64,000 bases of DNA from Myxococcales bacterium (lineage in GTDB: Bacteria; Lernaellota; Lernaellaia; Lernaellales; Lernaellaceae): NCBI GenBank assembly GCA_012517325.1, contig JAAYVF010000060.1, positions 1 to 64,000 of the forward strand, written 5' to 3'. Below, one piece after another: positions 5,323 through 63,099 of the stretch; the first letter of the stretch is position 1; every line of letters starts with the position of its first letter. The notes under the pieces were generated by a model. The model was not told where the DNA came from. It made no database searches and was given only the letters and a program-made list of their open reading frames with translations. The translations under genes were made by a program, and so were the position numbers.

Positions 5323-5328
5323 CGGGGT

Positions 5329-8150: not shown

Positions 8151-8151
8151 T

Positions 8152-8568
8152 TTATTCCCCCGCCAGCCAGGCGCCGCGCGTCCATTCGACGGCGGGCGGC
8201 TCCGACCAGACGACTTCGAAAATATCGAAGCGGATCTCCGGCGGATCGATTTTTTGCTGCCGGCAATACAACAAGGCCAGTTGCTCCAGTTTGCGCCGTT
8301 TGCGCCGATGCACCGCCTCGGCCGGACGGCCGAATTCCGTCGCCGCGCGGCTTTTCACCTCGACGAACGCCAGCGCCTGGCGATCGACCACGATCAGGTC
8401 GACCTCGCCCGCCGGGCAGCGCCAGTTGCGCGCCGCCACCCGTCCGCCCCGCCGGCGAATATGGCGGCAAGCCAACTCCTCGGCCTGCCGTCCCCGTTGC
8501 CCGCGCCCGTCGGCGGCGGCCGTTTCGCCGGTCGAACCGGTCAACAGGCGGCGGATCCATTCTCTCAT
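8152..8568 (-). CDS. yraN: YraN family (UPF0102) endonuclease-like protein
   Basis: 138 residues. The ATG overlaps the rnhB stop by 4 bases. The core GEVDLIVVDRQALAFVEVKSR carries the D-x(n)-ExK arrangement of the restriction-endonuclease-like fold, preceded by the family's RGxxxARNWRCPxGE segment. The pair rnhB-yraN is a widespread bacterial arrangement. A DNA-repair or recombination role is assumed for the family but is not well established. The N-terminal 25 residues are poorly conserved. Confidence 0.92.
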   Translation of the reverse strand: MREWIRRLLTGSTGETAAADGRGQRGRQAEELACRHIRRRGGRVAARNWRCPAGEVDLIVVDRQALAFVEVKSRAATEFGRPAEAVHRRKRRKLEQLALLYCRQQKIDPPEIRFDIFEVVWSEPPAVEWTRGAWLAGE

Positions 8569-9209: not shown

Positions 9210-9374
9210 ACCCGCGTTTCCTCCCCCGCCGACGAGCGGCCGGCCTCGCTCGAGGTTTCGGCCCGCGGACCCGATTCCGCCAAAATTACCGGCCGTTATC
9301 GGCACATGAATGCCGTTAGCTTACCGGTTTTAGCGGCGGGTGTCAAAAATTCGCTAGTCGCCGGCGAGGAATTT

Positions 9375-9962
9375 TTAAGGAAAGGTTTGCCAGGAACCGC
9401 CCCACCACGATTTGGTGGGCCTGGTGAATAGCTGAGTGAAAAGCTGGACATCGAACAAAAATCGCAAACCGACCTGGTGCCGCAATTGCAAGCCCTCGGC
9501 GTTGTCGCCCACCGGCGCATCCAGCCGGTAAAAAACGCCCGCCAGATGAACCTTGCCCTCGCGTGGCGTCGCGCCGGTTTCGATGGGGTAGTCGAACGCG
9601 ACCGCCGGGCCGATGGAGACGACCGAAAACTTGCCGATCGTCACCGCGAAGCTCGGGCCCAGGGTGAGATACTTGAAGCCGAGCCGCGCCTCGCCGCGCA
9701 GTTGGCCGGTTTGGGAAACCGGCATGGCACCGCCCTCCGCCTGCAGCATGAACGAAAAATCGCCAATGTGGCCGCAGCCCAGCCCGCCGCCGAGATAGGC
9801 GTCGGTGCTGTCGGAGATGTCGTCTTTTTCCGGTAGGAACTGCCCGGCGGCCGTCAGAAACGGCCCGAACGACAGCCAATAGTTCTCGCCGGCCGGCGTC
9901 GCCCACGCCGCCGCCGCGCAGCCGAGTATAAGAATCGTCGCCAGCCGGATCGCTCTCATCAT
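9375..9962 (-). CDS. Exported beta-rich protein, possibly a small outer-membrane barrel
   Basis: 195 residues with a signal peptide (residues 1-22, MMRAIRLATILILG through AWATPAG). The mature chain consists of Gly- and aromatic-rich strands (LRGEARLGFKYLTLGPSFAV, SIGPAVAFDYPIETG), like a small outer-membrane barrel, although it ends in Pro instead of a terminal aromatic. Two ATGs occur in tandem at the start and only a weak AGGTAAT lies upstream. It stands between rnhB and the cytochrome genes without overlaps. I do not recognise the family. Confidence 0.7.
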   Translation of the reverse strand: MMRAIRLATILILGCAAAAWATPAGENYWLSFGPFLTAAGQFLPEKDDISDSTDAYLGGGLGCGHIGDFSFMLQAEGGAMPVSQTGQLRGEARLGFKYLTLGPSFAVTIGKFSVVSIGPAVAFDYPIETGATPREGKVHLAGVFYRLDAPVGDNAEGLQLRHQVGLRFLFDVQLFTQLFTRPTKSWWGGSWQTFP

Positions 9963-10075
9963 GGATTACCTGCAAGCTGATTTCGCCGAATTATAATCGC
10001 GGTTCGGCCGACATGCCAGCAAGTGGGATTCGCCCGCCAGGTCTTGCCCAAGCAAACGTCGGTCGCGCCTATAAA

Positions 10076-10102
10076 AAAACCCGGGGACAAGCCCCGGGTT
10101 TT
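10076..10102 (-). terminator. Rho-independent terminator after the c3 cytochrome gene
   Basis: An 11-bp perfect stem (AAAACCCGGGG with CCCCGGGTTTT) around a five-base loop is followed, on the minus strand, by a run of T residues (A at 10073-10079 on the plus strand). It starts about 20 bases after the cytochrome stop codon and is the cleanest terminator in the window. Confidence 0.9.
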
Positions 10103-10120
10103 AGCAAAACTAAAAATCAA

Positions 10121-10453
10121 TCAACCGGCGTGGCAACCCGCACAAGAGGTCGGGCCTTTGCCGGCGGCCGTGTGGCAAGCTTTGCACTGTTTGTGGAAAG
10201 CGTCTTTGCCTTTCAGACCGTTGGCTTTCGAGCCGGTGGCGTCATGGCAGCCTTTGCAATTGGTGTTTTGACCGGTGTGGTGGCATTTCTTGCAATCGTT
10301 GGCGGCATAACCGGCATGCGCCTTGTGCGTGAACTTCACCACTTTGGCCGCGCCGCCCTTCGACATCTCGATGACGTCGGTGACGGCCAGCGCCGCGCCG
10401 GCGATAGCCATGACAAAGGCCACCGCGATGATCCCTGCCAATGCTCTCTTCAT
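10121..10453 (-). CDS. Tetraheme cytochrome c3, PpcA-like
   Basis: 110 residues from an ATG with AAAGGAGG 5 bases upstream. The signal peptide is residues 1-23 (cut after GAALA), leaving a mature protein of about 87 residues. Four CXXCH haem sites are present (CKKCH, CKGCH, CKACH, CAGCH). There are exactly four further histidines (FTHKAH, the second H of CHH, and AFH), enough for bis-His ligation of all four haems. VKFTHKAH and DCKKCH recall the triheme c7 PpcA family of Geobacter, but an extra haem motif (CKGCH) is inserted, as in class III c3. Probably a periplasmic electron shuttle for the membrane c/b fusion encoded just upstream. Confidence 0.93.
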   Translation of the reverse strand: MKRALAGIIAVAFVMAIAGAALAVTDVIEMSKGGAAKVVKFTHKAHAGYAANDCKKCHHTGQNTNCKGCHDATGSKANGLKGKDAFHKQCKACHTAAGKGPTSCAGCHAG

Positions 10454-10525
10454 GTGTTCCTCCTTTATCGACAAACCAATACAGACTTGCTAATGCAAGG
10501 GTTGCATCCCCGATACCGGTATTCA

Positions 10526-12562
10526 TTATTGCATATTCAAGTCGGCTTGGCTAGCGCTTTTTCTGCGGGCGATTTCCGCTTCCCGTTTGATCCGCTCCAG
10601 TTCAAGCGGATGCTCGTGCTCCATCTGCTCCTCGGTCATTTTGCCGGTCAGCCAGTGCGTGGCCATCGGCGCGACATCCGGATTGCACAATACGGAATAG
10701 AAATGCCAGATGATGATGGCCAGTGTCGCGAGAATGGCTTCCATGTAATGGACGATATTGGCGACGTCAATGGCCCAAAGTGGAAGGAATTTCAGGAATA
10801 ATTCCTCGAACCACAACATCAGGCCGGTGAGCACCATGACCACCGTCCCCCAGACCATCGCCAGATATTCCATCTTTTCGATATAGGAAAAACGATCGAA
10901 TTTTGGCTTCTTTTTCCAGAGGCCCAGGTTGTAGGCGAGCATGTAAACCATGTCGTAGGCGTCTTTCATGTTCGGCAACATGCCCGTGAAATAACCCCGG
11001 CCGCGGCGGGTCAAGGCCACCCAATAGGTATGATAAATCGCCCAGATGATCATCAAAATCGCGGCGAAGCGGTGCACGTAGGCGCGGATCGTCTCATTCA
11101 GTTCGCCCGATAAACCGGGAATCGTCCAGCCGAAGACCAGAGCGAAACCGGAAATAACCAACAGGCTGAAACTGAACATCAGCAAGAGGTGTTGGTAGCG
11201 TTCGTTCCGGCTCAGGCGATCATATTCGCCCATCGCTTTCATCCGCCGGACGTGCGCCCGAATTTTTTTCAGCCAGTCGAGCAGGTTGTGCAACAGCATG
11301 AAGCCGAGCACCGACGGGATCAGCGCGAGGTAGGCCCAGCGGACCCAGTACTGAACCTTCTCGCCGATCGTGCCGGCGTTTTCGCCGATCGACGGGTGAA
11401 CCTTGCCCACGGCCGCGCCTTTGCCGATTCCCGGGTGGCACGCGCCGCACGTGGCGACGAGATTGTTCGGGTGGATGGAACTGCGCGGATCGGCGCTGGA
11501 AAGAATGGCGTGCGCGCCGTGACAACTGGCGCAACCGGCGGCGCGCAAGTCGCCCTTTTTCATCGCCAGGCCGTGGAAGCTGCCGGTGTAACTTTGCGTC
11601 GTGGAGCGGATGCCGAAACGATCGTTGATCCGCTCGGCCTGGTGGCATTCGCCGCAGACGTTTTCCACGCTCCGGTAACCGTAAACCTGCGAGTTTTTAT
11701 CTTTGACCGCGCGGATGTTGTGGCTGCCGTGGCAATCGTTGCAGGTCGGGCTGGACAAGTTGCCGCGCTTGATCGCGGCGCCGTGCACGCTCAGTTCGAA
11801 ATCCTGCCGTTCCTTTTGGTGGCACTTGCCGCAATTCTCGGCAAGATTGGCCTTGCCGGTTTTGCCGCCGTAGATTTGCGCTTCGTGGCTGTCGTGGCAG
11901 TCGTTGCAGGTGGCGTTGATTTTCTTGCCGTCCTTGCGCTGGGCGTGAATGCTTTGCGCCCATTCGTCGAACGCCTGATTGCGGGGCTGGTCGGGCATTT
12001 TGCCCTTGGCGTGACAGGCGCCGCAATTCTGCGCCATCTTCTCCCGGTTGGTACGGGAATTCGCGTCGGTCGAGGAAAGAATCGCGTGTCCGCCGTGGCA
12101 ATCGGCGCAGACGGGGCCCAGCGAATTGCCGGCCTGACGGGCGCTGAAATGCGCCGACCGTTCGTAGGCCTTGGCCGAGTCGTCGTGGCACTGGGCGCAA
12201 TGCACGCCGGAAAGTTTGGCCGCGTGATTGAGTTTGGCGATGTCGGCGTGGCACAGCAGGCAATCCGCGCCGTGCACGGATTTTTTCAGCGCTTCCAGAT
12301 CGGTTTTCATCGCCACGCCGGCGCGCGCCGGGTCCGCCTTGGGATAAGCCGGCCGCCAGTCGGGCGGCACCGCGTCCACCATACCGGCGCGATCTTCCGG
12401 TCCGGCGCCGTCGATCGTGCCGTCGTGACAGCCCATGCATTCGGCGGCGGTCGGCTTCGGAGGCGGCGCTGCCTGGCCCCAGGCGTGGGCGGGTGTGAAG
12501 AGCGCCAACACGATTCCACAAAGGATCGCGTAAACACCTAAAAATAAGCCCGTTTTCCGCAT
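10526..12562 (-). CDS. Multiheme c/b fusion, CbcL-like quinone-cytochrome oxidoreductase
   Basis: 678 residues from an ATG with GAGGG 9 bases upstream; an ATG 30 bases earlier lacks a site. After a signal sequence (1-30) there are eleven CXXCH haem c motifs between residues 42 and 376, then a membrane domain with five hydrophobic helices. These carry histidines suited to two b haems (LLHNLL, VHRFAA, IYHTYW, VHYMEA, IWHFYS), as in formate-dehydrogenase-gamma/HydC-type cytochrome b. This architecture matches CbcL of Geobacter, which has nine c haems and passes quinol electrons to periplasmic cytochromes during low-potential metal reduction. Eleven haems is an expansion. It is followed 72 bases later by the c3 gene. 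The respiratory role is inferred from architecture. Confidence 0.92.
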   Translation of the reverse strand: MRKTGLFLGVYAILCGIVLALFTPAHAWGQAAPPPKPTAAECMGCHDGTIDGAGPEDRAGMVDAVPPDWRPAYPKADPARAGVAMKTDLEALKKSVHGADCLLCHADIAKLNHAAKLSGVHCAQCHDDSAKAYERSAHFSARQAGNSLGPVCADCHGGHAILSSTDANSRTNREKMAQNCGACHAKGKMPDQPRNQAFDEWAQSIHAQRKDGKKINATCNDCHDSHEAQIYGGKTGKANLAENCGKCHQKERQDFELSVHGAAIKRGNLSSPTCNDCHGSHNIRAVKDKNSQVYGYRSVENVCGECHQAERINDRFGIRSTTQSYTGSFHGLAMKKGDLRAAGCASCHGAHAILSSADPRSSIHPNNLVATCGACHPGIGKGAAVGKVHPSIGENAGTIGEKVQYWVRWAYLALIPSVLGFMLLHNLLDWLKKIRAHVRRMKAMGEYDRLSRNERYQHLLLMFSFSLLVISGFALVFGWTIPGLSGELNETIRAYVHRFAAILMIIWAIYHTYWVALTRRGRGYFTGMLPNMKDAYDMVYMLAYNLGLWKKKPKFDRFSYIEKMEYLAMVWGTVVMVLTGLMLWFEELFLKFLPLWAIDVANIVHYMEAILATLAIIIWHFYSVLCNPDVAPMATHWLTGKMTEEQMEHEHPLELERIKREAEIARRKSASQADLNMQ

Positions 12563-49071: not shown

Positions 49072-51008
49072 CGCGCCGCCGCGACGAGATCCTCGCCTTC
49101 TTCGCGCCGCTGGCGCTGTACCTCGCCACGCTCGTACCCACCATCCACCTGGGCGATTCGGGCGAACTGACCCTCGGCGCGGCCCTGTTGGCGATTCCGC
49201 ACGTGCCGGGCTATCCGCTGCTGGCGACCCTCGGCCACGCCTTCGCGCAAGTGCCGCTGGCGCATCTGGCCTGGCGCGGCAACTTCTTTTCCGCATTTTG
49301 GGGCGCGCTGACGGTCTGGGCGCTTTACCGCTTTCTGCTGGCGCTGACCGGCCGCCGCCGGGCCGCGTTGGCGGCCGCCCTGTTGTTCGCGGTCACCTAC
49401 ACGCTGTGGGAACAGTCGTTGAAAATCCGCGCCTACCCGCTCAACACGTTTTTCGCCGTGGGCGTCCTCTATCTTTCCCTGCGCTGGCGGCAGACTTTCG
49501 ACCGCCGTTATCTGCTGTCCGCCGCGTTTCTCTTCGGCCTGGGGCTCGGTAATCACGAAATCCTGCTGGTCGTCGCCGCCGTGCCGCTGGCCTGGGTGGC
49601 CGCGCATCGCCGCCGGCTGCAAGGTCGGGATTGGCTGCTGGGTATTGTCCTCGTCGCCCTGGGCGTCTCGATCTATCTCTATCTGCCGATCCGCGCCGCG
49701 ACCGGGCCGGCCCTCAACTGGGGCGATCCGAGCACGCCGTCGCGCTTGCTCGATTCACTGTTGCAACGCCAGTACGCCGGCAAAATGTTCAATCCCGATT
49801 GGGGACCGAAGCTCGCCATACTGCGGGTCATCGCCGCCAGCTTCCCGGACGAATTCGGGGCGGCGGCTTTCCTGCTCGGCTGTCTGGGCCTGATCGTCCT
49901 GGCCCGGCGCGACGCGGTTTTCGTGCTCGGCCTGTTCCTGATGGCGCTGCTCAACGTGCTGTTGCGCATCAACTATATCGGCGAGGATGAAATCTTCCAG
50001 GTGCGCCGCTACCTGATCAGTTCCTATCTCGTCGTCGCCGTCGGTCTGGGCGCGGCGCTCGCCGAACTCGAAGCGCGGGCCGAAACCGCCGGTCGTCCCT
50101 GGCTTTCGCGCGTCTTTCAGTTGCTGCTCGTGCTGCTGATCGCCTTTCCCGCGCTGAAGCATTACTCGGCGAATCAGCAAGCAAAAAACTGGGTGGCTTA
50201 CGAGGCCTGGCAGAACGCGCTGAGCCATCCGGCGCCGAGCTACGCCTTGTTCGTCGGCGGCGACAACAATCTCTTTCCGCTCTGGTATCTGCAAATCGGC
50301 GAGCGGCGGCGACCCACCGTGACCGTGCTGCCGCGCGGCGGTTTCCGCGGGGATTGGGTCGTCGAAAAAATGGGCCGCACCCTGCCGCCGGACACCATCC
50401 GGATGCGGCCGGAATACGTCGCGGCCGGCTTGCACGACCCGCTGTTTCTGTCGACGGTGGCCAACCTGCTCGACGATCGCCGGCTGCCGCTCGCCTTCGT
50501 GTTCGATCACGTGGCCAACCCGGCCGACGACGAAGCGTTGCAGGAGTTGCGGCTGCGACAACCGCCGATCTACGACGGCGCCTTGTCCTGGTGGGTCACG
50601 CCGCCGGCCCGGCCGCAAGAGGCCTGGCGCTTTTATCAAACGGCCGCCATTCTCGATCCGGACCTGGTGCGGGACCATCACACGCAGACCGTCGCGACCG
50701 ATTACAGCGTCTATTACGTCCGGCTGGCGCGGTTCGCGGAAAATCAAGCGCAACCGGAATCGGCCGAAACCGCCTATCAAAAAGCCCGCGCGGCCGATCC
50801 GGCCAACGACGCCGCGCTGGCGCAAAACGCCAACTTCTTCGCCCGTCAAAACCGCCTGAACGAGGCCGTCGCCCTTTACCGCCAGGCCATCGCCCTGAAT
50901 CCGCGCGAAGCGCGGCACCATCACAATCTGGCTTTGATTCTGGAAGCGGCCGGCCGGCCGGCCGAGGCGGCCCGCGAGTGGGAACTGGCTAAAGCAGCGA
51001 GACCTTGA
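49068..51008 (+). CDS. DUF2723-like membrane protein with C-terminal TPR
   Basis: 646 residues from a TTG that overlaps the previous stop (TTGA), with GAGGAAGAG ahead of it. The N-terminal part LVPTIHLGDSGELTLGAALL followed by IPHVPGYPLLATLGHAFAQ matches the DUF2723 family, membrane proteins related to eukaryotic TMEM260 mannosyltransferases. About ten helices precede a soluble C-terminal region with TPR units (AETAYQKARAADPANDAALA, AVALYRQAIALNPREARHHH). The last 20 bases overlap the end of the convergent TonB-receptor gene. Likely a protein or lipid glycosyltransferase; donor unknown. Confidence 0.82.
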   Translation: MTRRRDEILAFFAPLALYLATLVPTIHLGDSGELTLGAALLAIPHVPGYPLLATLGHAFAQVPLAHLAWRGNFFSAFWGALTVWALYRFLLALTGRRRAALAAALLFAVTYTLWEQSLKIRAYPLNTFFAVGVLYLSLRWRQTFDRRYLLSAAFLFGLGLGNHEILLVVAAVPLAWVAAHRRRLQGRDWLLGIVLVALGVSIYLYLPIRAATGPALNWGDPSTPSRLLDSLLQRQYAGKMFNPDWGPKLAILRVIAASFPDEFGAAAFLLGCLGLIVLARRDAVFVLGLFLMALLNVLLRINYIGEDEIFQVRRYLISSYLVVAVGLGAALAELEARAETAGRPWLSRVFQLLLVLLIAFPALKHYSANQQAKNWVAYEAWQNALSHPAPSYALFVGGDNNLFPLWYLQIGERRRPTVTVLPRGGFRGDWVVEKMGRTLPPDTIRMRPEYVAAGLHDPLFLSTVANLLDDRRLPLAFVFDHVANPADDEALQELRLRQPPIYDGALSWWVTPPARPQEAWRFYQTAAILDPDLVRDHHTQTVATDYSVYYVRLARFAENQAQPESAETAYQKARAADPANDAALAQNANFFARQNRLNEAVALYRQAIALNPREARHHHNLALILEAAGRPAEAAREWELAKAARP

Positions 51009-53304
51009 TGCCGCCGAAGGGCAGGAACGGCAACTGGTAGATCGGTTTGCGCACCGGCTCGTCGAGCCCCTGTTCGTTCTCGTAATAGTAGCCGTACAGG
51101 TTGCGCTCGTTGTAAACGTTGTAGACCTCGACAAACGCCGCGAGGTCGAGGCGCTTGTGCAAGTGCCAGGTGCGTTCGGCGCGGACGTCGAGCCGGTCGT
51201 ACAGCGGGAACCGGTCGGAATTGAGCGGGCCGCTTTCCGCCTGCCAGAAGCGCAGGAACGTCCGCGGGAATTCCTCTTCCCAGCCCTCCACCGGCGTATT
51301 GGGTCGGCCCGTCGTCAGGCGGAAGCTGGTTGAAAAGACCCAATCCTGCAGGGCGCGGACGTTGGCCACCAGCGCCAGGGTGTGCCGCTGATCCTGTTCC
51401 GGGTAATACCAGCCGTAGCGGCCCATCCCGTCGTTGTAGCGCACCTCGGAGACGGAATAGGCGACCCAGCCGTCCCACCAGCCGGACAGCTTTTTCTGGA
51501 AGAACGCCTCGAGGCCCTGGGCATTGCCGAAACCGGAATTGGTGTAGAGGATGTCGGGGATTTCGTTTTGCAACACGAAGTCGGTCTGTTCGAGAAAGCT
51601 GCCCGCCGAGCCACTCATGTCCTGATAGATCCGGTCGTCGAATTCCTTGTAGTAGGTTTCCAGCCGGACCATCATGTTTTCGCCGACGCCCTGTTCGAGG
51701 CCGACGACGAAATGGGTCGATTTTTCCGCCCGCACGTTCGGGTTGCCCAGTTTTTCGTCCGAAACGAAACTGTTGTAAGGCGGCAGGAAATAGATGCCCC
51801 AGCCGGTTTTAAGGACCGTGCTCTTCGTCAGGTTGGTGGACATACTGGCGCGCGGGCTGAACACCCACCCGTTTTTCGTCGCCATGAAGCGGTCGAGCCG
51901 CGCCCCGATGTTGGTGCGCAGCCGCTCGGGCACGATTTCCGCCTCGTGCTGCACGTAGAACCCATAAAGCTGCTTGGGCTTGGAGTCGGAAAACTCGATG
52001 TTGTAGTACTTGTTTTCGGTCGAGGACCGCGCGCCCGGCGTGTATTCCGACAGGGGGAATTTCGCGCCGATGTCCAGGTCGACCCGGCCGTAGACGCCGC
52101 CGAGCTTGAAGACGTTGCGCGGCACGCTGAACTGCACGTCCTCGTTCACGTAGAAGCCGCCGGCGTCGGCCCGGCCGAAATAGCTGTTGGCGCCCGAGGT
52201 GACGTTGCCGCTGGCGTTGAGCAACTGGTAGCTGGCCGAGGTGCTCGACAAAAACCAGCTATTGGGCAGGAAATTGTAATTCAGGCCGTACACCTGGGTG
52301 ATCTGATTGTAGTAGGCGGAACCCTCGTCGACGATCGACGGGTTGTCCTCGGTGATGTTCGCCCGTGCCCCGTCCTCGCTGCGGATGGCCAGGGCCACCA
52401 GGCGGTGCATGTCGTTGGGTTCCCACGTCGCGCGCAGCATCACGTCGGAAAAAACCGGAATCGGAACGTCGGTCCAGTTGAGCAGGCGCAGCATGTAATC
52501 GTAATAGCTGCGCCGCGCGTTAACGGTCCAGGTCACCTGGTTGCCGGCCGGGCCCGAGGCGAGCGCCGAGGCCGAGAGCAGCGAAACCTCCGCGATGCCA
52601 TCGACGTGATCGCGGTTGCCGTCGCGGTAGGTGATGTCCAGCACGCTGCCGGTGGCGAAGGGATACTGCGCGGGGAAGCCGGCGGCGTAGAAGGTAAAGT
52701 TCTTCACCAGGTCGGTGTTGATGATCGACATGCCGATCCCGAAGTGATACGGGTTGGCCAGCAACTGCCGGTCGAGCACGATCAGGTTTTCGTAGTTTTC
52801 CGAGCCGCGCACGTACATGTCACTGGTGAAATCGGTGTTGGAGACGATGCCGGGCAATTGTTGGATGGCCTTGGTGATGTCTTCCAACGCGCCGGCATTG
52901 CTCTGGATTTCCTCGCGGGTGAACGTGTGGGCGCTGGTCTGCGGGGTTTCGTCGACCGGCGCGCGGTCGGTGATGACGATTTCCTTCTGGGTGAACGTCA
53001 CGCTGAAGCGCAGTTGCACGTCGAGCGTCACGGCCTCGTCCGCTTTGACGCCGACCTGACGCGTCGCGGGATCGTAGCCCTCGGTGTGAAAGCGCAGGTT
53101 GTAGTTGCCGGCCGGCAGGTCGGTCAGTTCGTAGCGGCCGTTCTCATCGGAAAACACCGTCCGGGCCTTGCCGACGATCTTCACCTCGGCGCCCATCACG
53201 GGCGTGCCGTCCTCGTCGGTCACCAGGCCGTTGATCGAGCCGGCCAGCGCCAGGCCCGGCGCCAGCCAGCAAATCAGCAGAATGAAGAAACCGAAACGTC
53301 GCAC
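50989..53304 (-). CDS. TonB-dependent outer-membrane receptor with N-terminal carboxypeptidase-regulatory-like domain
   Basis: 771 residues. Signal peptide (1-21), then a carboxypeptidase-regulatory-like beta-sandwich (about 22-105: GLVTDEDGTPVMGAEVKIVG, YELTDLPAGNYNLRFHTEGY). Next comes a plug (about 125-230, with HTFTREEIQSNAGALEDITK and MYVRGSENYENLIVLD), and a 22-strand type barrel to the end (PFGGIKVSLL, terminal hydrophobics). Such receptors import large or scarce substrates with TonB energy. No siderophore or vitamin motif shows the ligand. It is divergent from the RND exporter gene and convergent by 20 bases with the DUF2723-like gene. Confidence 0.92.
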   Translation of the reverse strand: MRRFGFFILLICWLAPGLALAGSINGLVTDEDGTPVMGAEVKIVGKARTVFSDENGRYELTDLPAGNYNLRFHTEGYDPATRQVGVKADEAVTLDVQLRFSVTFTQKEIVITDRAPVDETPQTSAHTFTREEIQSNAGALEDITKAIQQLPGIVSNTDFTSDMYVRGSENYENLIVLDRQLLANPYHFGIGMSIINTDLVKNFTFYAAGFPAQYPFATGSVLDITYRDGNRDHVDGIAEVSLLSASALASGPAGNQVTWTVNARRSYYDYMLRLLNWTDVPIPVFSDVMLRATWEPNDMHRLVALAIRSEDGARANITEDNPSIVDEGSAYYNQITQVYGLNYNFLPNSWFLSSTSASYQLLNASGNVTSGANSYFGRADAGGFYVNEDVQFSVPRNVFKLGGVYGRVDLDIGAKFPLSEYTPGARSSTENKYYNIEFSDSKPKQLYGFYVQHEAEIVPERLRTNIGARLDRFMATKNGWVFSPRASMSTNLTKSTVLKTGWGIYFLPPYNSFVSDEKLGNPNVRAEKSTHFVVGLEQGVGENMMVRLETYYKEFDDRIYQDMSGSAGSFLEQTDFVLQNEIPDILYTNSGFGNAQGLEAFFQKKLSGWWDGWVAYSVSEVRYNDGMGRYGWYYPEQDQRHTLALVANVRALQDWVFSTSFRLTTGRPNTPVEGWEEEFPRTFLRFWQAESGPLNSDRFPLYDRLDVRAERTWHLHKRLDLAAFVEVYNVYNERNLYGYYYENEQGLDEPVRKPIYQLPFLPFGGIKVSLL

Positions 53305-53488
53305 GCCATGTTCTCCCGGGAATCACCGGTTACCTTAACGGCGGTCGGCGCAAAGTTCAATGCCGGTCCGCGGTTCCTGGGTCTATTCGTCGCCGAAAAT
53401 CCTCGGGAAATCCCGCGATTCGTGCCGAACCCGCCCCTTTTCGCTACGGCGGCAGCTTGATTTATCCCCCACCCTCAAGTAGCTTGAT

Positions 53489-53514
53489 CGCCGATTTGCA
53501 ACAATCGATCGGCG
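53489..53514. promoter_or_regulatory. Inverted repeat in the divergent TonB-receptor/RND control region
   Basis: CGCCGAT (53489-53495) and ATCGGCG (53508-53514) are perfect inverted 7-mers with a 12-base gap, in the 267-base divergent region, about 60 bases ahead of the RND gene. It could be an operator controlling either or both genes. No clear -35/-10 pair was found near it. Confidence 0.35.
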
Positions 53515-53571
53515 GTGCGATTCCGGGCGGAAACGCCGCGCTGTTTTCATCGACCGAGGTGGGATCAGACC

Positions 53572-56487
53572 ATGCAACGGCTAGCGGATTTCATTCTTCG
53601 GCAACGCGCCGCGGTTCTGGCGGCGATCGTCGCGCTCACCCTCCTACTGGGCTACCAGGCGGCCAAGTTGCGCCGCGACAACGATATTTTTCACTTTTTA
53701 CCGGCCGGCGACCCCGACGTCCGCTTCTTCATGGAAACGGGCGAGCGCTTCGGCAGCAATTTCACCAATATGGTCGCCCTGGAAACGGCCGACCTGTTCA
53801 CCGCTGAAAACCTGAAAACCCTGCGCGAACTGACCGCCGCGATCGAACGCGTCGAGGGCGTGACGCAATCGCTCAGCCTGACCAACGTCCTGGACACCCG
53901 GCGCAATGGCGATTCCGTGGAAATCGCGCAGCTCATCCCGCCCGAAGCCTTGCCGACGCAGCCCAACGAATTGACGCTATTGCGCCAGGCGGCGCTGCAC
54001 AATCCGAACCTGGCCGGCAGTCTGGTTTCGGAAGACGGCCGCACGGCGCTGATCGCGGTCAGCCTGGCAGCCGACGCCGACCGCGAGGCGGCAGCGCGGC
54101 AGGTCAAGGCGGTCGCCCGCCAGACCGCGCCCAAGGCCAAATTGTATTTCGGCGGTTACGCCATGGTCATGGATTCCATGCAGGAGATGATCAACGCCGA
54201 CATGACCCGCCTGATCCCCATCACCGTGGCGGTCGTGATTCTCGTGCTTTTCCTGGGCTTCGGCAGCGCGCGGGGCGTGCTGTTGCCGCTGGCGGTCGTG
54301 GCCCTGGCGAACGGATGGACGCTGGGCTTGATGAGCCTGGCGGGCATTCCGCTGACCCTGCTGACCTCGCTGGCGCCGGTGGTGATCGTCGCCACGGGCG
54401 CGTCGGCCGGCATCTACGTGCTCGGACGCTATTATGAAGGATCGGTGGACGCGACCGACCAGCGGGCCGTCGTCGCGGCGGCGCTGGGCAAGGTGAACGG
54501 ACCGATTCTCCTGTCCGGACTGGCCGCAGCGCTGGGCTTCCTGGCCCTGCTGATCGCGCCGATGACCCTGTTCAAGCAGTTCGGCGTCGCGGCGGCCCTG
54601 GGCTCGCTGGTGTCGGCGCTGTTGTCGGTCACCTTCCTGCCCGCGCTGCTTTCCTATCTGCCGCTCCGGCCGGCGCGGCCGTTTCTGCGCCGCCGCCCGT
54701 TCGCCGCGCCCGAAAACGGCCTGCTCGGCCGCCTGGGCCGCCTGGCCTCCGAACGGTCCCTGGCCGTGTTGCTCGTCGCCCTGGCGCTCGTGCTGACAGC
54801 GGGCGCGCTGCTGGCGCGGATTCCGCTTTACGCCGACCTGATGACGTACTTTCCGCCCGCCAGCGAGACCCGCGTTTCCGAGGCGCTATTGCGCGACAAG
54901 TTCGGCGGCTCGCAGTTTTTCTTCGTCAATTTCCAGGCCAAGGACGTGCGCGATCCGGTTGTGCTCGACCAGATGGATCGCCTGATGAAGCGGCTGCGTT
55001 CGGTGCCCGGCGTCAACTACCCGCAGTCGATCGTCGACGTCGTCGCGCTGCTCAACCGGCTGATGCACGGCGAGCCCGGCGTGCCCGATTCGCGCGAGAA
55101 GATCGACAACCTCTGGTTCTTCCTGCAAGGCCAGAAAATGATCGCCCCCTTCATCGACAAGGACACGCAAAACGCCGTCGTCCAGGCGCGCCTGGGCGCC
55201 AGCGATCCCCGTGTCCTCGCGTCGAGCCTGACAACCATTCAAGACCTGCTCGACCGCGAATTCCCGCGTGAGGGTTTCGCCGTCCCCTGGACCGGCCTGA
55301 CCGGCGAGCAGCGGGACGCGCTGCGCCAATACCAGGCCAAACACCTGGCCGAAAAAATCCGCCTCGATCTGCGGCCGGTTTTGCCGGACCTGCCGGCCGA
55401 ATTGCCGGCCGTGGAGCGTTTGTTGGTCGAGGCCATGTCGACGTCGACCGCGCTGGAAAGCGGCCTGCGGCAACCATTCCGGAAAATCGCCGCGCATTAC
55501 CTGAGCGGTGCCGATTGCGACATCCCGCTGCCGGAAAATTTCGACGCCGAGCCACTGGCCGAGGCGCTGTCCCTGGCCGAAACGTTCACCGCCCCCGGTT
55601 TCGCCGTCGTGCTGCAAGCCAAGCTGCCGCCGGCGGTGCTGCAGGAGGATCCGGACAGCGTTTCGTTCGCGGCGGACGCCCTGGCGAACCTGGCGGCGGG
55701 CGCCGCGAACGAACAGCGGTATCAACGAGTCCAATCAAAATTACTCGGTTGGCTGGCCGACGATTACCGTTTCAAGCTCGACCAACCCGGCCGGGAACGC
55801 CTGGCCGCCGATTTGCGCGCCGACCTGTGGGGCGTCAACGCCCAGCACGTCTTCGCCGATCGCGAAAACTACCGCCGGATCCTCGGCCGCGAACCGGCGG
55901 ACGGCGAGGCGGTGCGCTGGGAAATCAAGCTGACCGGCTGGCCGGTCGTTTCCGGCAAGTTCGACGCCCGGCTGCTGCCGGTGCAGCTCGAAATGCTGGC
56001 CCTGGTGCTCGCCGTCCTGTGGATCCTCCTGGCGCTCTACCTCCGCTCGCCCCTCGGCGGCCTGCTGGCCGTGTCGCCGGCGGCGTTGACGGTGCTGATC
56101 CACTTCGGGGTGATGGGCGCGCTCGGGTTTCCGCTCGACAACAGCGCGGTGATGATTTCGGGCATCGCCCTGGGGATCAGCGTCGGCTACGCGATCGTCT
56201 TCACCGCCCGGCTGCGGGAAGAGGCGGCGGCGGGCGCGTCGCCGGCCGGCGCGACGGTGCGCGCCTTGACGACCACCGGACGGGCCATTAGCATGAGCGC
56301 GCTTTCCGTCGCACTGGGGTTCCTGGTGCTGGTTTTTTCAGAAATGACTCCCCAAAAACGGTTTGGGTTGTTGATTGCGTTAGCCCTGGTCGTCGCCGCG
56401 GCGGCGACGTTTACGGTTTATCCGGCGGCGCTCGGGCGGCTTCGCCCCCGCTGGCTCCGCGACGCGGCGCGCGGCTCGAAAAGTTGA
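53572..56487 (+). CDS. RND/MMPL-family exporter
   Basis: 971 residues from the ATG of MQRLADFILRQRAAVLAAIV; an ATG 57 bases earlier adds an atypical leader. Two halves each carry one N-terminal helix, a large periplasmic domain, and a five-helix MMPL block. The first block is LIPITVAVVILVLFLGFGSA to VSALLSVTFLPALL; the second starts at VQLEMLALVLAVLWILLALY. The ALxxxGRAISMSALSVALGF-like region near the C terminus is typical. The driving force is proton transfer across the inner membrane. MMPL proteins of this size export lipids such as hopanoids or glycolipids, and the LolA-like gene 18 bases downstream suggests a lipid or lipoprotein cargo. Confidence 0.92.
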   Translation: MQRLADFILRQRAAVLAAIVALTLLLGYQAAKLRRDNDIFHFLPAGDPDVRFFMETGERFGSNFTNMVALETADLFTAENLKTLRELTAAIERVEGVTQSLSLTNVLDTRRNGDSVEIAQLIPPEALPTQPNELTLLRQAALHNPNLAGSLVSEDGRTALIAVSLAADADREAAARQVKAVARQTAPKAKLYFGGYAMVMDSMQEMINADMTRLIPITVAVVILVLFLGFGSARGVLLPLAVVALANGWTLGLMSLAGIPLTLLTSLAPVVIVATGASAGIYVLGRYYEGSVDATDQRAVVAAALGKVNGPILLSGLAAALGFLALLIAPMTLFKQFGVAAALGSLVSALLSVTFLPALLSYLPLRPARPFLRRRPFAAPENGLLGRLGRLASERSLAVLLVALALVLTAGALLARIPLYADLMTYFPPASETRVSEALLRDKFGGSQFFFVNFQAKDVRDPVVLDQMDRLMKRLRSVPGVNYPQSIVDVVALLNRLMHGEPGVPDSREKIDNLWFFLQGQKMIAPFIDKDTQNAVVQARLGASDPRVLASSLTTIQDLLDREFPREGFAVPWTGLTGEQRDALRQYQAKHLAEKIRLDLRPVLPDLPAELPAVERLLVEAMSTSTALESGLRQPFRKIAAHYLSGADCDIPLPENFDAEPLAEALSLAETFTAPGFAVVLQAKLPPAVLQEDPDSVSFAADALANLAAGAANEQRYQRVQSKLLGWLADDYRFKLDQPGRERLAADLRADLWGVNAQHVFADRENYRRILGREPADGEAVRWEIKLTGWPVVSGKFDARLLPVQLEMLALVLAVLWILLALYLRSPLGGLLAVSPAALTVLIHFGVMGALGFPLDNSAVMISGIALGISVGYAIVFTARLREEAAAGASPAGATVRALTTTGRAISMSALSVALGFLVLVFSEMTPQKRFGLLIALALVVAAAATFTVYPAALGRLRPRWLRDAARGSKS

Positions 56488-56505
56488 TCGAGAAAGGAAA
56501 TCAGC

Positions 56506-57267
56506 ATGTTCAACTGGAAACGGTTGTCTTTGGCGGTTTTGTTGGGCGTCGGGTGCCTGCTGGCGGCGACCGCTCACGCCCAGGAGATGGACGGTAACGC
56601 GATCCTGCGCAAAGCCGACGACGTCGCCAACGCGATGAAAGATCTCAAATTCGACATGACCATGATTCTGGTCGACAAGAGCGGCATCGAGAAAAAACGG
56701 GTCCTGCGCGTCTGGCAGAAGGACAAGAAGCGGATGACCAAGTTCATGGAACCGGCCACCGAGCGCGGCATGGCGGTCTTGGTCATCGACGACCAGACCA
56801 GCTTCACCTACCTGCCCGCCTACAAAAAGGTCCGCCGTATCGCCTCGCACGTGCGCAACCAGTCGCTGATGGGCGCCGATTTCTCGCAGGAAGACCTGTC
56901 CACCACCCACCTCTCCAACGATTACAACGCCGACCTGCTGGAAACGACGGCCGATAATTACCTGCTGAAACTGACGCCCAAGCCGGACAAGATGCTCAGC
57001 TATTCCAAGCTGGAGATCACCCTCCAGCGCAACACGCTGCTCATCACCCAGCTCAAATATTTCGACAAGATCAGCGGCAAGCACGTCAAGACCGAGGACC
57101 GCGAGAACTTCACCACCATCAAGGGCTACACCGCGCCGCGCCACGTCAAAATGACCGACCTGGCTTCCGGCCATTACACGACCATCGACATGACCAACGT
57201 CGAATACGACACGAACATCAGCGAGGACATCTTCACCACGCGCTACCTGCGGCGCCCCGAGAAATAA
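56506..57267 (+). CDS. Outer-membrane lipoprotein-sorting (LolA-like) protein
   Basis: 253 residues. Signal peptide 1-24 (MFNWKRLSLAVLLGVGCLLA). The mature protein starts with NAILRKADDVANAMKDLKFD and continues with LRVWQKDKKRMTKFMEPATE, the pattern of the LolA_like outer-membrane lipoprotein-sorting family, an unclosed half-barrel that holds acyl chains. In such operons it ferries a lipid or lipoprotein between an RND protein and the outer membrane. AAGGAAAT precedes the ATG by 7 bases, and it begins 18 bases after the RND stop. Confidence 0.92.
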   Translation: MFNWKRLSLAVLLGVGCLLAATAHAQEMDGNAILRKADDVANAMKDLKFDMTMILVDKSGIEKKRVLRVWQKDKKRMTKFMEPATERGMAVLVIDDQTSFTYLPAYKKVRRIASHVRNQSLMGADFSQEDLSTTHLSNDYNADLLETTADNYLLKLTPKPDKMLSYSKLEITLQRNTLLITQLKYFDKISGKHVKTEDRENFTTIKGYTAPRHVKMTDLASGHYTTIDMTNVEYDTNISEDIFTTRYLRRPEK

Positions 57268-57270
57268 CGG

Positions 57271-58770
57271 ATGGCCCGTCGCTTCCGGTCCTGGCTTCTT
57301 TTGCTCGCGCCGACGCTCTGCCTGTGGGCGGCCGCGGCCGGCGCCGCGCCCAAGGCCGGTCTGACCTGGAGCGGCTTCTTCGAGTCCATCAACCGCGCCA
57401 CCATCGAGGGCCCCAGCGAATTCAACTACAACGAAAACGTGCTGGGCCTCGAGGTCACCGCCATCCCGACGGGCATGGCGATGGTCTACGGCAGCTTGCA
57501 CCTGGTGAACATCGGCATCGACGAGCGCGTCGACGATCACACCCTGACCATCGACCAGCAGCAGGACCGGTCGCAGACCGATCCCGTGCGGCTGGAACTG
57601 GATGAAGCCTACCTGCAGGTTTCCGGCCTCGGCGTGAAGGACCTGGACCTGAAAATCGGCAAACAGCGCATCCAGTGGGGCACCGGCGACCAGTTCAACC
57701 CGACCGACAACCTCAACCCCGACGACCTGCACGACCCACTACGCTTCGGCGCCAAGGTGCCGACCCCGGCGCTGCAGGCCCAGTACTTTCTCGGCCAGTC
57801 GACATTTACCGCCGTGCTGGTGCCGCTGTTCGAGCCGGCGCTGCTGCCGCGCACCGACGTGCGGCCGATTTTCGAGAAGCAGTTCGCCGAAATGTCGAGC
57901 TCGTTTCAGATCGACACCGGCGACGCGGTGCTCGACAGCCTGTTCGATTCGATGATCGGGCCGGCGCTCGACGGCGCGTCGCTCGGGTCGGTCAACATTC
58001 ACGGCACCCTGCCCGACAAAACGCCGCGCAACATGAACTACGGCCTGAAGTTCGCCAGCAACTTCGGCCCGATCGACTTTTCGATCAGCTACGCCTACGT
58101 GCGCGACGACTTCGGCGTCCCCAAGCGCATCACCATGACGGTCGCGCCGCTGTCGGGCGATTCCGGCAAGCTGATCGACACCGTCGACGTCGACGTCGAA
58201 AACGCGTTCCCGCGCGAGCACGTGATCGGCGGCGACTACTCGGCCAACGTGCCCGCGCTCGACATCGGCGTCTGGGGCGAGGTGGCCTTCTTCATTCCGG
58301 AATCGATGGAAACGACCTACGTGCTCGACGCCGGCACGGAATTCAACCGGCTGTTCGGCGGGATCGCGCGGCGCGATCTGGAAAACGGCGTGGTCATCGC
58401 CAAGGACAAGCCGCTCGAGGACAATTTCTTCAAGGCCGTCGCGGGCCTCGACTACACCTTCCCCGGCGCGATCTACATCAACACGCAGTACGTGCACGGC
58501 TTTCCCAACGAGAGCACGGCCGAGGCGATTTCCGATTACCAGTTTCTCATGATCGACCGGCCGTTCCTCAACGACGCGATCAAACCGCGCCTCAACGCCC
58601 TCTATTGCTACACCGACCAGAGCTTCGTGATTTACCCGGAAGTGTATTTCTTCCCGTACGACGCGATCGAAATCTCACTCGGCACTTTTCACATTTTCGG
58701 TGAGATCGACACCAGCTTCGGCCAGTTCGGCCACGACTTCGCGTTCCTGCGCGCCAAGGCGACGTTCTGA
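57271..58770 (+). CDS. DUF1302-like outer-membrane protein
   Basis: 499 residues with a signal peptide (1-26, ending AAGAAPKAG). GLTWSGFFESINRATIEGPS and the diagnostic GKQRIQWGTGDQFNPTDNLN mark the DUF1302 family of outer-membrane barrels. The chain ends RAKATF with the terminal Phe of a barrel. It begins 3 bases after the LolA-like gene, so all three form an operon. DUF1302 barrels occur with RND and LolA-like or DUF1329 proteins in several proteobacteria, where they likely take part in lipid or lipoprotein placement. Confidence 0.85.
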   Translation: MARRFRSWLLLLAPTLCLWAAAAGAAPKAGLTWSGFFESINRATIEGPSEFNYNENVLGLEVTAIPTGMAMVYGSLHLVNIGIDERVDDHTLTIDQQQDRSQTDPVRLELDEAYLQVSGLGVKDLDLKIGKQRIQWGTGDQFNPTDNLNPDDLHDPLRFGAKVPTPALQAQYFLGQSTFTAVLVPLFEPALLPRTDVRPIFEKQFAEMSSSFQIDTGDAVLDSLFDSMIGPALDGASLGSVNIHGTLPDKTPRNMNYGLKFASNFGPIDFSISYAYVRDDFGVPKRITMTVAPLSGDSGKLIDTVDVDVENAFPREHVIGGDYSANVPALDIGVWGEVAFFIPESMETTYVLDAGTEFNRLFGGIARRDLENGVVIAKDKPLEDNFFKAVAGLDYTFPGAIYINTQYVHGFPNESTAEAISDYQFLMIDRPFLNDAIKPRLNALYCYTDQSFVIYPEVYFFPYDAIEISLGTFHIFGEIDTSFGQFGHDFAFLRAKATF

Positions 58771-58894: not shown

Positions 58895-60139
58895 TCAATC
58901 CGCCAAAGGAAAAGCAACGTCCGTCAATTCCCAATAGGCGTCGTCGTTGAAATCAATATCAGGCAGCACGACTCTTTTCCATTCACCCTTGTCGAAATGC
59001 AGGATCAAGCCAATGGTTTTATCCATCGGCTCGACAACAGTATACATCGAGGCTCCAACCGCCCACATCTCCATTGCCGAGATCGTCGCCACGCTATTAA
59101 AGTAGCTGCTTGCATGGAGGACGATTTGTTGGATATTCGGCAACTCATCATGCCAGCCGTCTTGGGCGTATCGCGCGGCGACATTTTCCGACTCGACCAG
59201 CCATCCATTTTGCCTATCGATAAATGAGAACGAGGCGGAAAAGCCAAACTCGCCACACGTATTATCCTCACCAACCCAATCCTCTTGTCTCCAAGCGCCA
59301 TCAAAATAATGTAAAATCACCGGCGCATAAAACTCGTTGCCAAAACCCGCCGCCCAACCTTCTGCCTCGTCGTTGAAAACAACCGCGTTCAAAGTCCAAC
59401 TGCCGGCCACCTCCGGTAATTCTTCTTCCTGCCAGGAGACGCCGTCGTAGACGAGCATCAATCCCCTTCGCAAGTCGGGATAAGTGGCGTCGTAGTACCC
59501 GGCGGCATGACCAAATTGATCGGACCAGACGTGAATGCTCTCCAGATGCCAGGCGTTTTCGAGCGCCGGCGCCTCGACGAATTGCCAAGCGCCGTCGATA
59601 TAGTGCATCAGTAAATCGCCGTTCGTCGCGCTATCGCCCCCGATCGCCCAACCTTCCCGCGTGTTCAACATATGGATATCGTGTACGCTCCAGCCGGTTT
59701 CGCGTGCGGGGGTTTCTTCCTGGAGCCACTCGCCGTTCTCGTAACGCAGGATCAGGCCGGCGATGGGCAGGCCGATGTCATCACGGCGCACCGAGCCTAC
59801 CGCCCAGCCCTGGGTTTTCGTCGGAAAGGACAGGGCATACAGATACACGCGCTCCGTTTGCTCCGGTAGCGTTTCCAGGGCCCATTTCTCGTTTTGATAA
59901 TGAGTAACGAACCCGATGCCCGCTCGACAATTGTAACCGGTTGCCCATCCCTCGTTTGGATCGACCGTCGTATCGTTGTTGTCGTTGTTGTCGTCATTGT
60001 CGTCGTCATTGTTATCGTTGTCGTCATCATCATCTTGAGCCTGCCCCGAGGGCGACTCGGGGTCATCATCGTCGGATGAATTTTGGCAACCGGCGAAAAC
60101 GGACAAAAAGAGCAAGAGAAAAAGGCAAATGCGTTTCAT
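58895..60139 (-). CDS. Lipoprotein with Asp/Asn-rich linker and propeller-like repeats
   Basis: 414 residues from the ATG of MKRICLFLLLFLSVFAGC, with AGGAAG 6 bases upstream; an ATG 15 bases earlier lacks a site. Cys18 is the lipidated residue. It is followed by about 45 residues that are almost only Asp and Asn, then a domain of repeated beta units, each with a GWAxG or GHAAG-like turn (EGWATGYNCRAG, QGWAVGSVRRDD, EGWAIGGDSATN, EGWAAGFGNEFY). This arrangement suggests a beta-propeller of the YCF48/BNR kind. Probably outer-membrane-anchored and surface exposed. Its role is unknown. Confidence 0.82.
   Translation of the reverse strand: MKRICLFLLLFLSVFAGCQNSSDDDDPESPSGQAQDDDDDNDNNDDDNDDNNDNNDTTVDPNEGWATGYNCRAGIGFVTHYQNEKWALETLPEQTERVYLYALSFPTKTQGWAVGSVRRDDIGLPIAGLILRYENGEWLQEETPARETGWSVHDIHMLNTREGWAIGGDSATNGDLLMHYIDGAWQFVEAPALENAWHLESIHVWSDQFGHAAGYYDATYPDLRRGLMLVYDGVSWQEEELPEVAGSWTLNAVVFNDEAEGWAAGFGNEFYAPVILHYFDGAWRQEDWVGEDNTCGEFGFSASFSFIDRQNGWLVESENVAARYAQDGWHDELPNIQQIVLHASSYFNSVATISAMEMWAVGASMYTVVEPMDKTIGLILHFDKGEWKRVVLPDIDFNDDAYWELTDVAFPLAD
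59960..60040. repeat. Trinucleotide low-complexity tract (GAC/GAT and AAC/AAT codons)
   Basis: On the plus strand the tract is made of GTC, GTT, ATC and ATT triplets that encode the Asp/Asn linker of the lipoprotein on the other strand. A similar tract lies at 15885-15970 in the other Asp-rich lipoprotein gene. Such triplet tracts can expand or contract by slippage, changing linker length. Confidence 0.7.
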
Positions 60140-60225
60140 GCTTCGCTTCCTCATGATTCGAAATCCATCATCATGACCACTGGCATTGTATCACTCTTTT
60201 AAGTAAACTTCGTTTTCCCGAATTC

Positions 60226-62386
60226 TTAATAAATCGACATTTGTGGATCACCATAGAGCGTGGTAATCAACACTTGATTGTAATTCGCCATGTCTAATCG
60301 ACCGTATATGGGCTCGGTTGCATAGGCTAATGCCAAGCCGATATTCAGGTTCATCCGGATCGCAAAATCAGCCCACCGATATCTGATTTCCTGCATTCCG
60401 TAATCAGTCATACAGGTGTCGAAATTTTTACAATCGTTTGTAGCCCATCCGGTAATCGTGCTGGCAATTGATGCCGCCGACCTCCAACGCAGCATTTTAT
60501 AAGCTAAATTTCCCAGGTCGTCGGGTTTACCCATGTTGCATCCGCCGAAGTAGTGGATGTGCCTAGTCGTCCTTCCACAACTTAAACTACCGTATCCACC
60601 TTGGATATCAGAGGAATAGACAAACGGCAAAGCATTGATTTCTCCATCCGCACAATTCGTCTGACAATTATCACTTTGCGGTGCATTGTCCACTGGCAAA
60701 TCACAAATCCATCTTCTTCGGTTGGAACTGTCGGGACTTCCATGTGAAAATTGCAGCAATACACCAAAGCTTTGATTGTATAATGTTGCTTTATATGTTG
60801 AGTTATTGAGATCCTCGGTACTCGAACCGCTGCAATAGGTATTGCCGTCCCAAGAACAGTTATCATCACTATCGTCATCATCGATGGGTAACATTTCGAT
60901 ACAATCCGCCTCGTTGCAATGATCATACAATCGGTATTGCGCGTTGAAGCCGGCTTCCTGAACGATATCGGTATAAATCGCCTGCGTGGTAAGGGAGCAA
61001 TCAAATTTACTTTCGTAACAATATTCGTTGCAATGTCCATCTACCCTTGTATCGAAAAGTCTTATCATACTGGCCGCGAGAAATACCTTTTGACGGTAGG
61101 CCGTGCCATAGGTTCCTTCTTGGAAGGCAATCGTGCGCGATAAAATGCAATTGAGCGCTTGTGTATCGTATAATGCCGCATAAGTGGAATTGTAATATAC
61201 CGGGATCCGACCCACGATGATGTCTTGCTCGAGTTTCAAACCATAGATATAGGTTTGCCAGCACAATTCACCCAAGGATATTTGGCAATAATCCCCACCG
61301 AATTCCGCCAGATTGCCATTGAGGTTTCGATCCCATAAGTGAGTGGCATCCAAGTCCGAATAATAGCGATCCGAATAACGATAATTGTCGGCATCGCCAT
61401 CGGGAACCGCTTTGATCATCGGGATCCAAACGTCTCCGTTCGATTCCGCTAAGGTGCGAGGATCGCCGATAAACAACATAACCGATATTCAGTGTGTTAA
61501 GATTGCTTCTCAGCCAGCTTTTTATTAAACCCCAACGATATCCAAGCCCGCCCCAATCGCTTTCGGTCGCCACATAAACGGTGATGCCGCGAGACGCCTT
61601 CGAATCGATATAGTCGTCAATGATCCCGGCAGAGTTATCGTAGATGTTGTCGGTCGTGATGATTACCTCGGAAAACGTAACCTTGGCCGATTTATCCGAG
61701 CGTGCCTCGTAAAGCGGAAGAATATCATTAAAATTCCAAATATTTTCGGCGGCTCTGTCAGCCAGAAAATCGCCTTTCATATCCTGCAGCGGGGTTCCAG
61801 TGCGCTAATAATAAATCCGAAAACTAGCGGATGAAGTCAGAAAAAGAGCGCCCTTTTGGATATCATACTGAAATGGACTGACCGCCACCAACGCATAGAC
61901 CCATTGCCGAAGGGTTTCGATGGAAGAAATCTGGATCGGCGCCGCCGGGAAAAGTTTTTCATGGTTGAGTGCGGCATCCTCGCTTGGGGCAAATTCCCCC
62001 TCGCCCGAGGTAATCGGTTTCAGCTCAATGAAGTTTTAGTACGTTTCAGTGTTGTCGGCGTAAATAATAAGATTGACACTTTCCGGATTGATATCGGCCG
62101 GCAGTCCGACGGGAATGAACACCATGGGAAGCGCTGGACCGCCCGTAAAACCATAATTATTGAAACCGGGGATGTTGATAGTACGTTCATTCTCACCGAA
62201 TGTAACATCCGTATCGGGAATTTTAAAGGAAATATCAATATAATTTTCTGTTGTTTCGATTGAAAAGTAGCTGCGCGGATCGCTTGAGAGTTCTTGGGAA
62301 TTGATCCCAAGAGTCCCGCAAAATCCGAAAGAGCTTCCAAAAAGCAGCGAACAAACAGTCACCAAAATAAAAAACAGTTTCCTCAT
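60226..62386 (-). pseudogene. Gingipain-type (peptidase C25) protease gene, inactivated
   Basis: From an ATG at 62386 (GGAGGGG 7 bases upstream; signal peptide MRKLFFILVTVCSLLFGSSF) one frame runs through a propeptide but meets TAA at 62036-62038 and TAG at about 61804-61806. After the first stop the same frame continues with ELKPITSGEGEFAPSED. It then reads on to SEVIITTDNIYDNSAGIIDD and WLRSNLNTLNIGY, where a single-base shift near 61480 moves it to VMLFIGDPRTLAESNGD. The catalytic domain that follows has the SHGSPDSS segment (His) and FGGCNMGKPDD (Cys) and runs to the natural end. Secreted Cys peptidase by family; broken here by two stops and one frameshift. Confidence 0.85.
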
Positions 62387-62482
62387 GATTACCCCTCCTA
62401 GTATACCCAATTGTGTTCGCCCGTCTTCAATATTGATAATTTTTAAGAACAACTATTTTTCAACCGTTTCTATTTAAAGTTA

Positions 62483-62511
62483 TTTAAAATCAACAAATTA
62501 GCGGCTGTCAA
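62483..62511 (-). promoter_or_regulatory. Promoter of the C25 peptidase gene
   Basis: TTGACA (62506-62511, minus strand), 17 bases and TTTAAA (62483-62488) lie in the AT-rich region about 97 bases ahead of the ATG. The -35 element is consensus and the -10 is a modest match. Confidence 0.5.
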
Positions 62512-62601
62512 TATATTTTTTAATCAATATTCATTTTAATCGGGCGGGTTATTCGTTTTTTCACCGAGGAGAAAAAGAATGTGATTCCCAGATGAGGGCG
62601 C

Positions 62602-63099
62602 TTACGACAGCCGTGACTCCAGCCATTGGGCGACGAGAACGGTGTGGCTGACGTTTTCGAGGACGAAGATCGAACGCAGGCGGAGGCCGGCGCATTCCCA
62701 ATCCACTTCCAGGGCCATCCGGCCTTCGATGCGCCGGCGGTCGGACAGCCGAACCTTGACCCCGCGCAGCAGCGTGTAGGGGATCCAGATCGGCCGGCGG
62801 ACGAACGTGCGCTTGAACAGCACGCCGCGGTCGCCGAGGTACAGCACGCCGGGGCGCACGAACAGCAGGCTCCAGCCCAAAAAAGCGGCGCCCTCGCGCT
62901 CCTCGTCCATCCGCCGCGTCAGGTAATAGAAACCGGCGAAATGCTGCATTCCCTCGCCGGGAGTTTCCGGGTTGCCCAGTTCGGCGGGCCAGGGGTATTT
63001 GCGCCGCAGATAGACTCCGAGCCCGAACCACACGCCCGCCAACACGACCAACAGCGATCCCACCAAAATGCTGTTGACGACGATCGGCGTGGCGGTCAT
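62602..63099 (-). CDS. Small membrane-anchored protein of unknown function
   Basis: 165 residues. One N-terminal membrane helix (VNSILVGSLLVVLAGVWFGL, about 8-28) is followed by a short soluble region with a beta-rich patch (SLLFVRPGVLYLGDRGVLFK, RPIWIPYTLLRGVKVRLSDR), resembling a PH-like or bPH domain. Function unknown. It begins 10 bases after the stop of the SurA-like gene and so belongs to its transcript. Confidence 0.75.
   Translation of the reverse strand: MTATPIVVNSILVGSLLVVLAGVWFGLGVYLRRKYPWPAELGNPETPGEGMQHFAGFYYLTRRMDEEREGAAFLGWSLLFVRPGVLYLGDRGVLFKRTFVRRPIWIPYTLLRGVKVRLSDRRRIEGRMALEVDWECAGLRLRSIFVLENVSHTVLVAQWLESRLS

Follow-up and report, generated by a model that had tools for sequence, protein, structure and literature searches.

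What is moved by a pump in the inner membrane, a carrier in the periplasm and a barrel in the outer membrane whose genes follow one another, and does the TonB-dependent receptor that diverges from them belong to the same machine? The locus that raises these questions lies in the window, by which is meant the whole stretch of 64,000 nucleotides analysed here (Table 1). A preliminary description had seen in it a dedicated route for a lipid or lipoprotein to the outer membrane, with a control region shared between the receptor and the three genes. Its account of the layout is borne out by the coordinates and by Pfam: three co-directional genes on the + strand, separated by 18 bases between the RND and LolA-like genes and by 3 bases between the LolA-like and barrel genes. 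The path from inner membrane through periplasm to outer membrane is likewise complete; the MMPL, LolA_like and DUF1302 families all pass their Pfam cut-offs.

Table 1. Features of the locus and their coordinates in the window
Feature	Coordinates	Strand	Remarks
TonB-dependent receptor, CarboxypepD_reg N-terminus and TonB plug (Pfam)	50989..53304	-	771 aa; neighbour only, outside the cassette
Intergenic region between TonB receptor and RND genes	53305..53571		267 bases; no significant repeat
MMPL/HAE3-like RND inner-membrane transporter	53572..56487	+	971 aa; favoured start ATG at 53572, stop at 56487
Periplasmic LolA-like carrier (PF17131)	56506..57267	+	253 aa; signal peptide, half-barrel
DUF1302 outer-membrane beta-barrel	57271..58770	+	499 aa; signal peptide

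The pump belongs to the MMPL family of the RND superfamily, scoring 195.6 bits against PF03176 (cut-off 20.5) in two stretches that correspond to two repeats, with hydrophobic segments that fit 12 transmembrane (TM) helices. HAE3 (TIGR00921) is still its top-scoring RND subfamily at 270.7 bits, although the cut-off is 351.9. It is not an HpnN hopanoid transporter, since it reaches 86 bits against a cut-off of 751.85 for TIGR03480, and its score is also far under the BstA cut-off. The nearest solved structures are exporters: MmpL4/MmpL5, and also MmpL3. The carrier and the barrel both start with ordinary signal peptides without a lipobox, as read from the sequence. The barrel is a weak but sufficient match to DUF1302 (PF06980; 28.4 bits, cut-off 23.2) and a predicted beta-barrel, and its AlphaFold2 model (pLDDT 79.8) finds its best PDB matches in AlgE, at a TM-score of about 0.5. 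Invariant alignment columns define a motif, GKQRI-WGT-D--NPTDNLNP-D (about residues 130-155), that the model places in a long loop following strand five. Given a periplasmic N-terminus, this loop would face outside, and by its topology it may resemble the pore-narrowing third loop of porins.

The carrier has the half-barrel fold and is a LolA_like protein (PF17131; 152.2 bits, cut-off 30), but falls below the cut-offs of both canonical LolA (PF03548; 16.2 against 23.6) and DUF1329 (18.6 against 23.1). Structure prediction, suggested as a check in the preliminary description, gives a half-barrel (AlphaFold2, pLDDT 92.8) that appears closest to 3bk5 and LolA3-type proteins and not to canonical LolA: TM-scores are 0.75-0.80 for PDB entries 3bk5 (a lipoprotein-sorting protein), 3buu, 9tp6 (LolA3 of Porphyromonas gingivalis) and 4z48, and only about 0.4-0.6 for canonical LolA or LolB. 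The likeness to LolA3 is clear in fold and profile (TM 0.80, 23% identity; profile match E 4e-69), but the carrier fails the NCBIfam LolA3 model, with 23.3 bits against 83.

Could the three genes be dedicated to sorting lipoproteins alongside Lol, the RND protein taking the place of LolCDE? The LolA half-barrel fold of the carrier fits, and so does a locus elsewhere in the same genome (L011; G000:C76:25000-43000, positions 3199-8436) in which a LolA_like gene leads into a pair of FtsX-type permeases, an ATPase and a barrel, and which looks like this line with the RND exchanged for an ABC transporter. Lipoprotein cargo is nevertheless the less likely one, because the carrier belongs to PF17131 and not PF03548, and because the genome already has a canonical LolA (at G000:C85, 79.1 bits) together with a LolD-like ATPase and an FtsX/MacB permease, these two encoded within the window itself. 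LolA3 of P. gingivalis, which resembles the carrier, is reported to bind LolB only weakly (PMC13103446), and among the clustered neighbours of the relative loci no gene for a lipoprotein is a constant companion of the triad. Parallel lipoprotein sorting is thus improbable. A further locus of this genome (L009; G000:C127:1-16000, positions 4891-7146) holds a LolA_like and barrel pair with no adjoining RND gene, and sulfatase-like genes on the other strand.

Are the three genes kept together elsewhere? An earlier contig scan with the single barrel protein had returned no match; an alignment-based barrel scan of 84,980 species gave 528 relatives, and the best 80 of these were analysed. They come from candidate phyla and FCB-group lineages: Cloacimonadota, Aminicenantes, KSB1, WOR-3/Stahlbacteria, Neomarinimicrobiota, Elusimicrobia, Calditrichota, Bacteroidota, Zixiibacteriota and others. 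Within this best 80 of 528, 79 loci have a called barrel; all three genes lie close together in 64 of them, even though many of the contigs end inside the operon, the LolA gene is directly upstream of the barrel in 61, and the order RND-LolA-barrel with nothing between is found in 41. The same order appears at the loci inspected in distant genomes, and a search of 60 relative genomes for barrel and carrier placed a LolA-like gene within about 5 kb in about 24 of 30 barrel loci. Distance matrices from 67 complete triads correlate at 0.81 (RND-LolA), 0.80 (RND-barrel) and 0.93 (LolA-barrel), values that none of 2000 permutations reached; because all three matrices carry the same species history, the correlations are evidence of co-inheritance and not of contact. 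The triad, which the preliminary description had proposed to trace across genomes, is a real, co-conserved unit, and the description thereby withstands the refuting condition it had named for relatives, a lack of co-conservation.

The receptor tells a different story. Its divergent position across the intergenic region stands as first described; the functional tie and shared regulation read into it do not. No homologue of the receptor occurs in the 80 loci, and it keeps its place without the triad in two same-family genomes, G001 and G002, whose orthologues are 66% and 58% identical. Both have the same genes upstream of the receptor and keep homologues of the downstream genes, with a FadL-like (Toluene_X) gene where the window has the triad. 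Since the flanks are kept around this gene, the triad occupies the site of another gene in close relatives, which it would have reached either by gain or by replacement. The window's own genome (G000) has no close copy of the FadL-like gene, the best match being 33% over part of its length. The TonB receptor was rejected as a functional partner on these grounds and is a chance neighbour. Presumably the promoters of the receptor and RND genes both lie between them, and a search of 53200-53700 gave neither a sigma-70-like promoter nor a terminator. The inverted repeat once taken for a control element does not survive scrutiny either: the best one within 20 bases is 7 bp (53489-53495 and 53508-53514), and it is no better than chance, being matched by 172 of 500 dinucleotide shuffles, so it was discarded as an operator. 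On the other side, just 3' of the triad, GC falls to 45-50% at 60000-62999 against about 65% around it; this segment has broken open frames without a family match and looks like foreign or decaying DNA, and the open reading frame at 60229-61479 matches nothing in Pfam or PDB.

A FadL-like gene in the triad's place beside the receptor would suit uptake, whereby the barrel would let in a hydrophobe such as an alkane, fatty acid or sterol, which the other parts would pass inwards or load for metabolism. Characterised MMPL/HAE3 proteins, however, are known for outward transport of cargo taken from the inner membrane, and the clustered neighbours of the relatives include no conspicuous catabolic genes, so that uptake is very improbable.

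What does stand out near the relatives is lipid chemistry. Neighbouring genes were clustered and the representatives assigned by Pfam, with loci counted over the 80 (best of 528) and six others. Patatin phospholipases occur in 30 relative loci, PlsC-type acyltransferases in 14, FabH in 10 (about 0.36 genes expected from background density) and FakA/DegV fatty-acid kinase parts in 5. Radical SAM proteins (16 loci), phasin-like proteins (15) and ABC1 kinases (12) recur as well, as does a class I/II aminotransferase in 10 (Pfam Aminotran_1_2) that looks like the acyl-condensing SPT/AONS type. TetR regulators are present in 41 relative loci and directly upstream in 27. For patatin, 33 genes were observed in the 80 loci (625 kb of non-triad sequence) against 0.33 expected from a background density of 100 in 192 Mb of the 60-genome set; the hundredfold excess is large, and its significance is indicative only because the loci are linked by phylogeny and the background comes from other genomes. 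In six loci (L093, L103, L111, L118, L131 and L136) a small phasin-like protein recurs together with an ABC1 (UbiB-type) kinase near the triad, in several of them also with patatin or acyltransferase genes, which offers a clue to the cargo. Beside the window's own triad there is no lipid gene, TetR or MarR, so its cargo is read from relatives at about 30-35% identity. A related triad elsewhere in its genome (L010) has a MarR gene upstream.

The recurrence of the three genes across phyla, often beside lipid-making genes, suggests a dedicated line for lipid-like export. Of the two cargoes first proposed, a lipid is supported indirectly, by the carrier fold, the RND family and the lipid genes enriched near relatives. 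The preferred reading, to which a probability of roughly 60% is given, is that the triad is dedicated to carrying a lipid or other hydrophobe from the inner to the outer membrane, with the TonB receptor as a bystander. The RND protein would take the molecule from the inner membrane and release it into the periplasm, where the LolA3-type half-barrel would ferry it across, shielded from water, and hand it over to the DUF1302 barrel, which may pass it through, or into, the outer membrane. Such a line would be a concrete candidate for a non-LPS lipid path to the outer membrane, a path still poorly known, and the patatin, FabH and acyltransferase neighbours in many uncultured phyla are partner enzymes that could reveal its cargo.

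How would the pump be driven? MmpL3 relies on Asp-Tyr pairs in TM4 and TM10 (PMC7458404). In a residue table of the 67 triads with all three genes, the canonical TM4 Asp is found in none (consensus GSAYGIH), and an Asp one residue on, replacing the Tyr, in three. The TM10 Asp is kept in 64 of 67 (GIGIDYSIH); the exceptions are the window (ISVGYAIV), the locus L054 (VSVPIA) and an incomplete sequence. The window protein has S278/A279 at the TM4 Asp-Tyr site and G872 at the TM10 Asp site; its TM4 segment has no charged residue, that of TM10 has a single Arg at its end, and it therefore lacks the acidic residue in TM4 and/or TM10 by which a proton-coupled RND is recognised. L054 is the sister of the window copy, of the same class, and both lack the two Asp residues; full relay loss is thus seen in a small sample of two genomes. 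Neither reading frame is broken, which suggests that the protein is maintained. The two form a clade with long branches in the RND tree, L054 especially, and together with the missing relay residues this means that the window pump could be weakened. With both acidic residues gone, the RND protein of this lineage would be either powered by another energy source, as proposed for MmpL7, or a passive conduit. A wider proposal is tentative and has somewhat less than an even chance: that the triad represents a phylum-spanning, previously undescribed lipid export system, often TetR-linked, whose relay would be reduced to the TM10 Asp family-wide and lost altogether in the window lineage.

Several known systems share parts with the triad. 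One is AmeABCD of Castellaniella defragrans, which also groups an HAE3-type RND protein, a periplasmic member of the LolA superfamily and a DUF1302 barrel, and is proposed to serve efflux of apolar monoterpenes, its deletion lowering monoterpene tolerance (PMC6394551). By this precedent the triad would expel toxic hydrophobic compounds (solvents, terpenes, fatty acids) instead of building the envelope; the TetR and MarR genes that lie upstream in relatives are a typical mark of inducible efflux, and the window's genome has an Ame-like locus of its own, with DUF1302, DUF1329, Ycf48-like and RND genes in ameABCD order (L012; G000:C83:36000-54000, positions 4303-11128). However, AmeABCD differs in its DUF1329 carrier, in a fourth, COG4447/Ycf48-like protein (AmeC) and in the order barrel-carrier-AmeC-RND, while the window carrier is a PF17131 protein under the DUF1329 cut-off in an operon that has no fourth gene, and the genes near relatives serve lipid synthesis or remodelling and not catabolism. 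Toxic efflux is accordingly an unlikely reading. Convergent with the triad on the opposite strand, 58895-60139 encodes an Asp/Asn-rich lipoprotein with weak Ycf48-like repeats, whose N-terminal part is common to dozens of proteins in the genome; an AmeC-like role is not claimed for it, because the pairwise similarity is only 1e-7 and the genome has many lipoproteins of this kind.

The loss of tolerance on deletion of ameABCD also counts in favour of the preferred reading of a line for a lipid or other hydrophobe. Other systems are partly alike. In P. gingivalis, an operon annotated as TetR, MMPL and lipoprotein-sorting (PF17131-type) protein, with a further hypothetical gene beside PG1180, is strongly upregulated when iron or haem is limiting (PMC10470040, PMC10434189); it resembles the TetR-linked triads, whereas the window copy has no TetR. 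Thalassolituus TOL_3187/TOL_3188 also combine MMPL, LolA-like and porin-like barrel parts, but with the first two in one fused protein and tied to alkane growth: the fused protein and the porin beside it both increase on C28 alkane, which is the other point in favour of uptake (PMC6304351). HpnN and BstABC share the RND-linked movement of lipid to the outer membrane (PMC10942540) that is proposed here, and differ in the partners they have in the periplasm and outer membrane. MmpL7 of Mycobacterium tuberculosis, with Ala-Ala and Pro-Tyr at the relay sites, sets the precedent for relay loss (PMC8427324), and the window protein, with Ser-Ala and Gly-Tyr, is like it in this respect; unlike it, MmpL7 is mycobacterial, carries PDIM and has no LolA-like or DUF1302 partner. 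The loss in one lineage of the triad is thus a second, apparently independent, case that bears on how RND lipid transporters are powered. In the open-access literature, no paper was found that treats the RND-PF17131-DUF1302 triad as a family linked to lipid genes, or that pairs 'outer membrane lipoprotein-sorting protein' with DUF1302. Related cassettes have already been described in AmeABCD and in the iron-limitation operon of P. gingivalis, and what is new here is a variant with an unusual loss of the relay.
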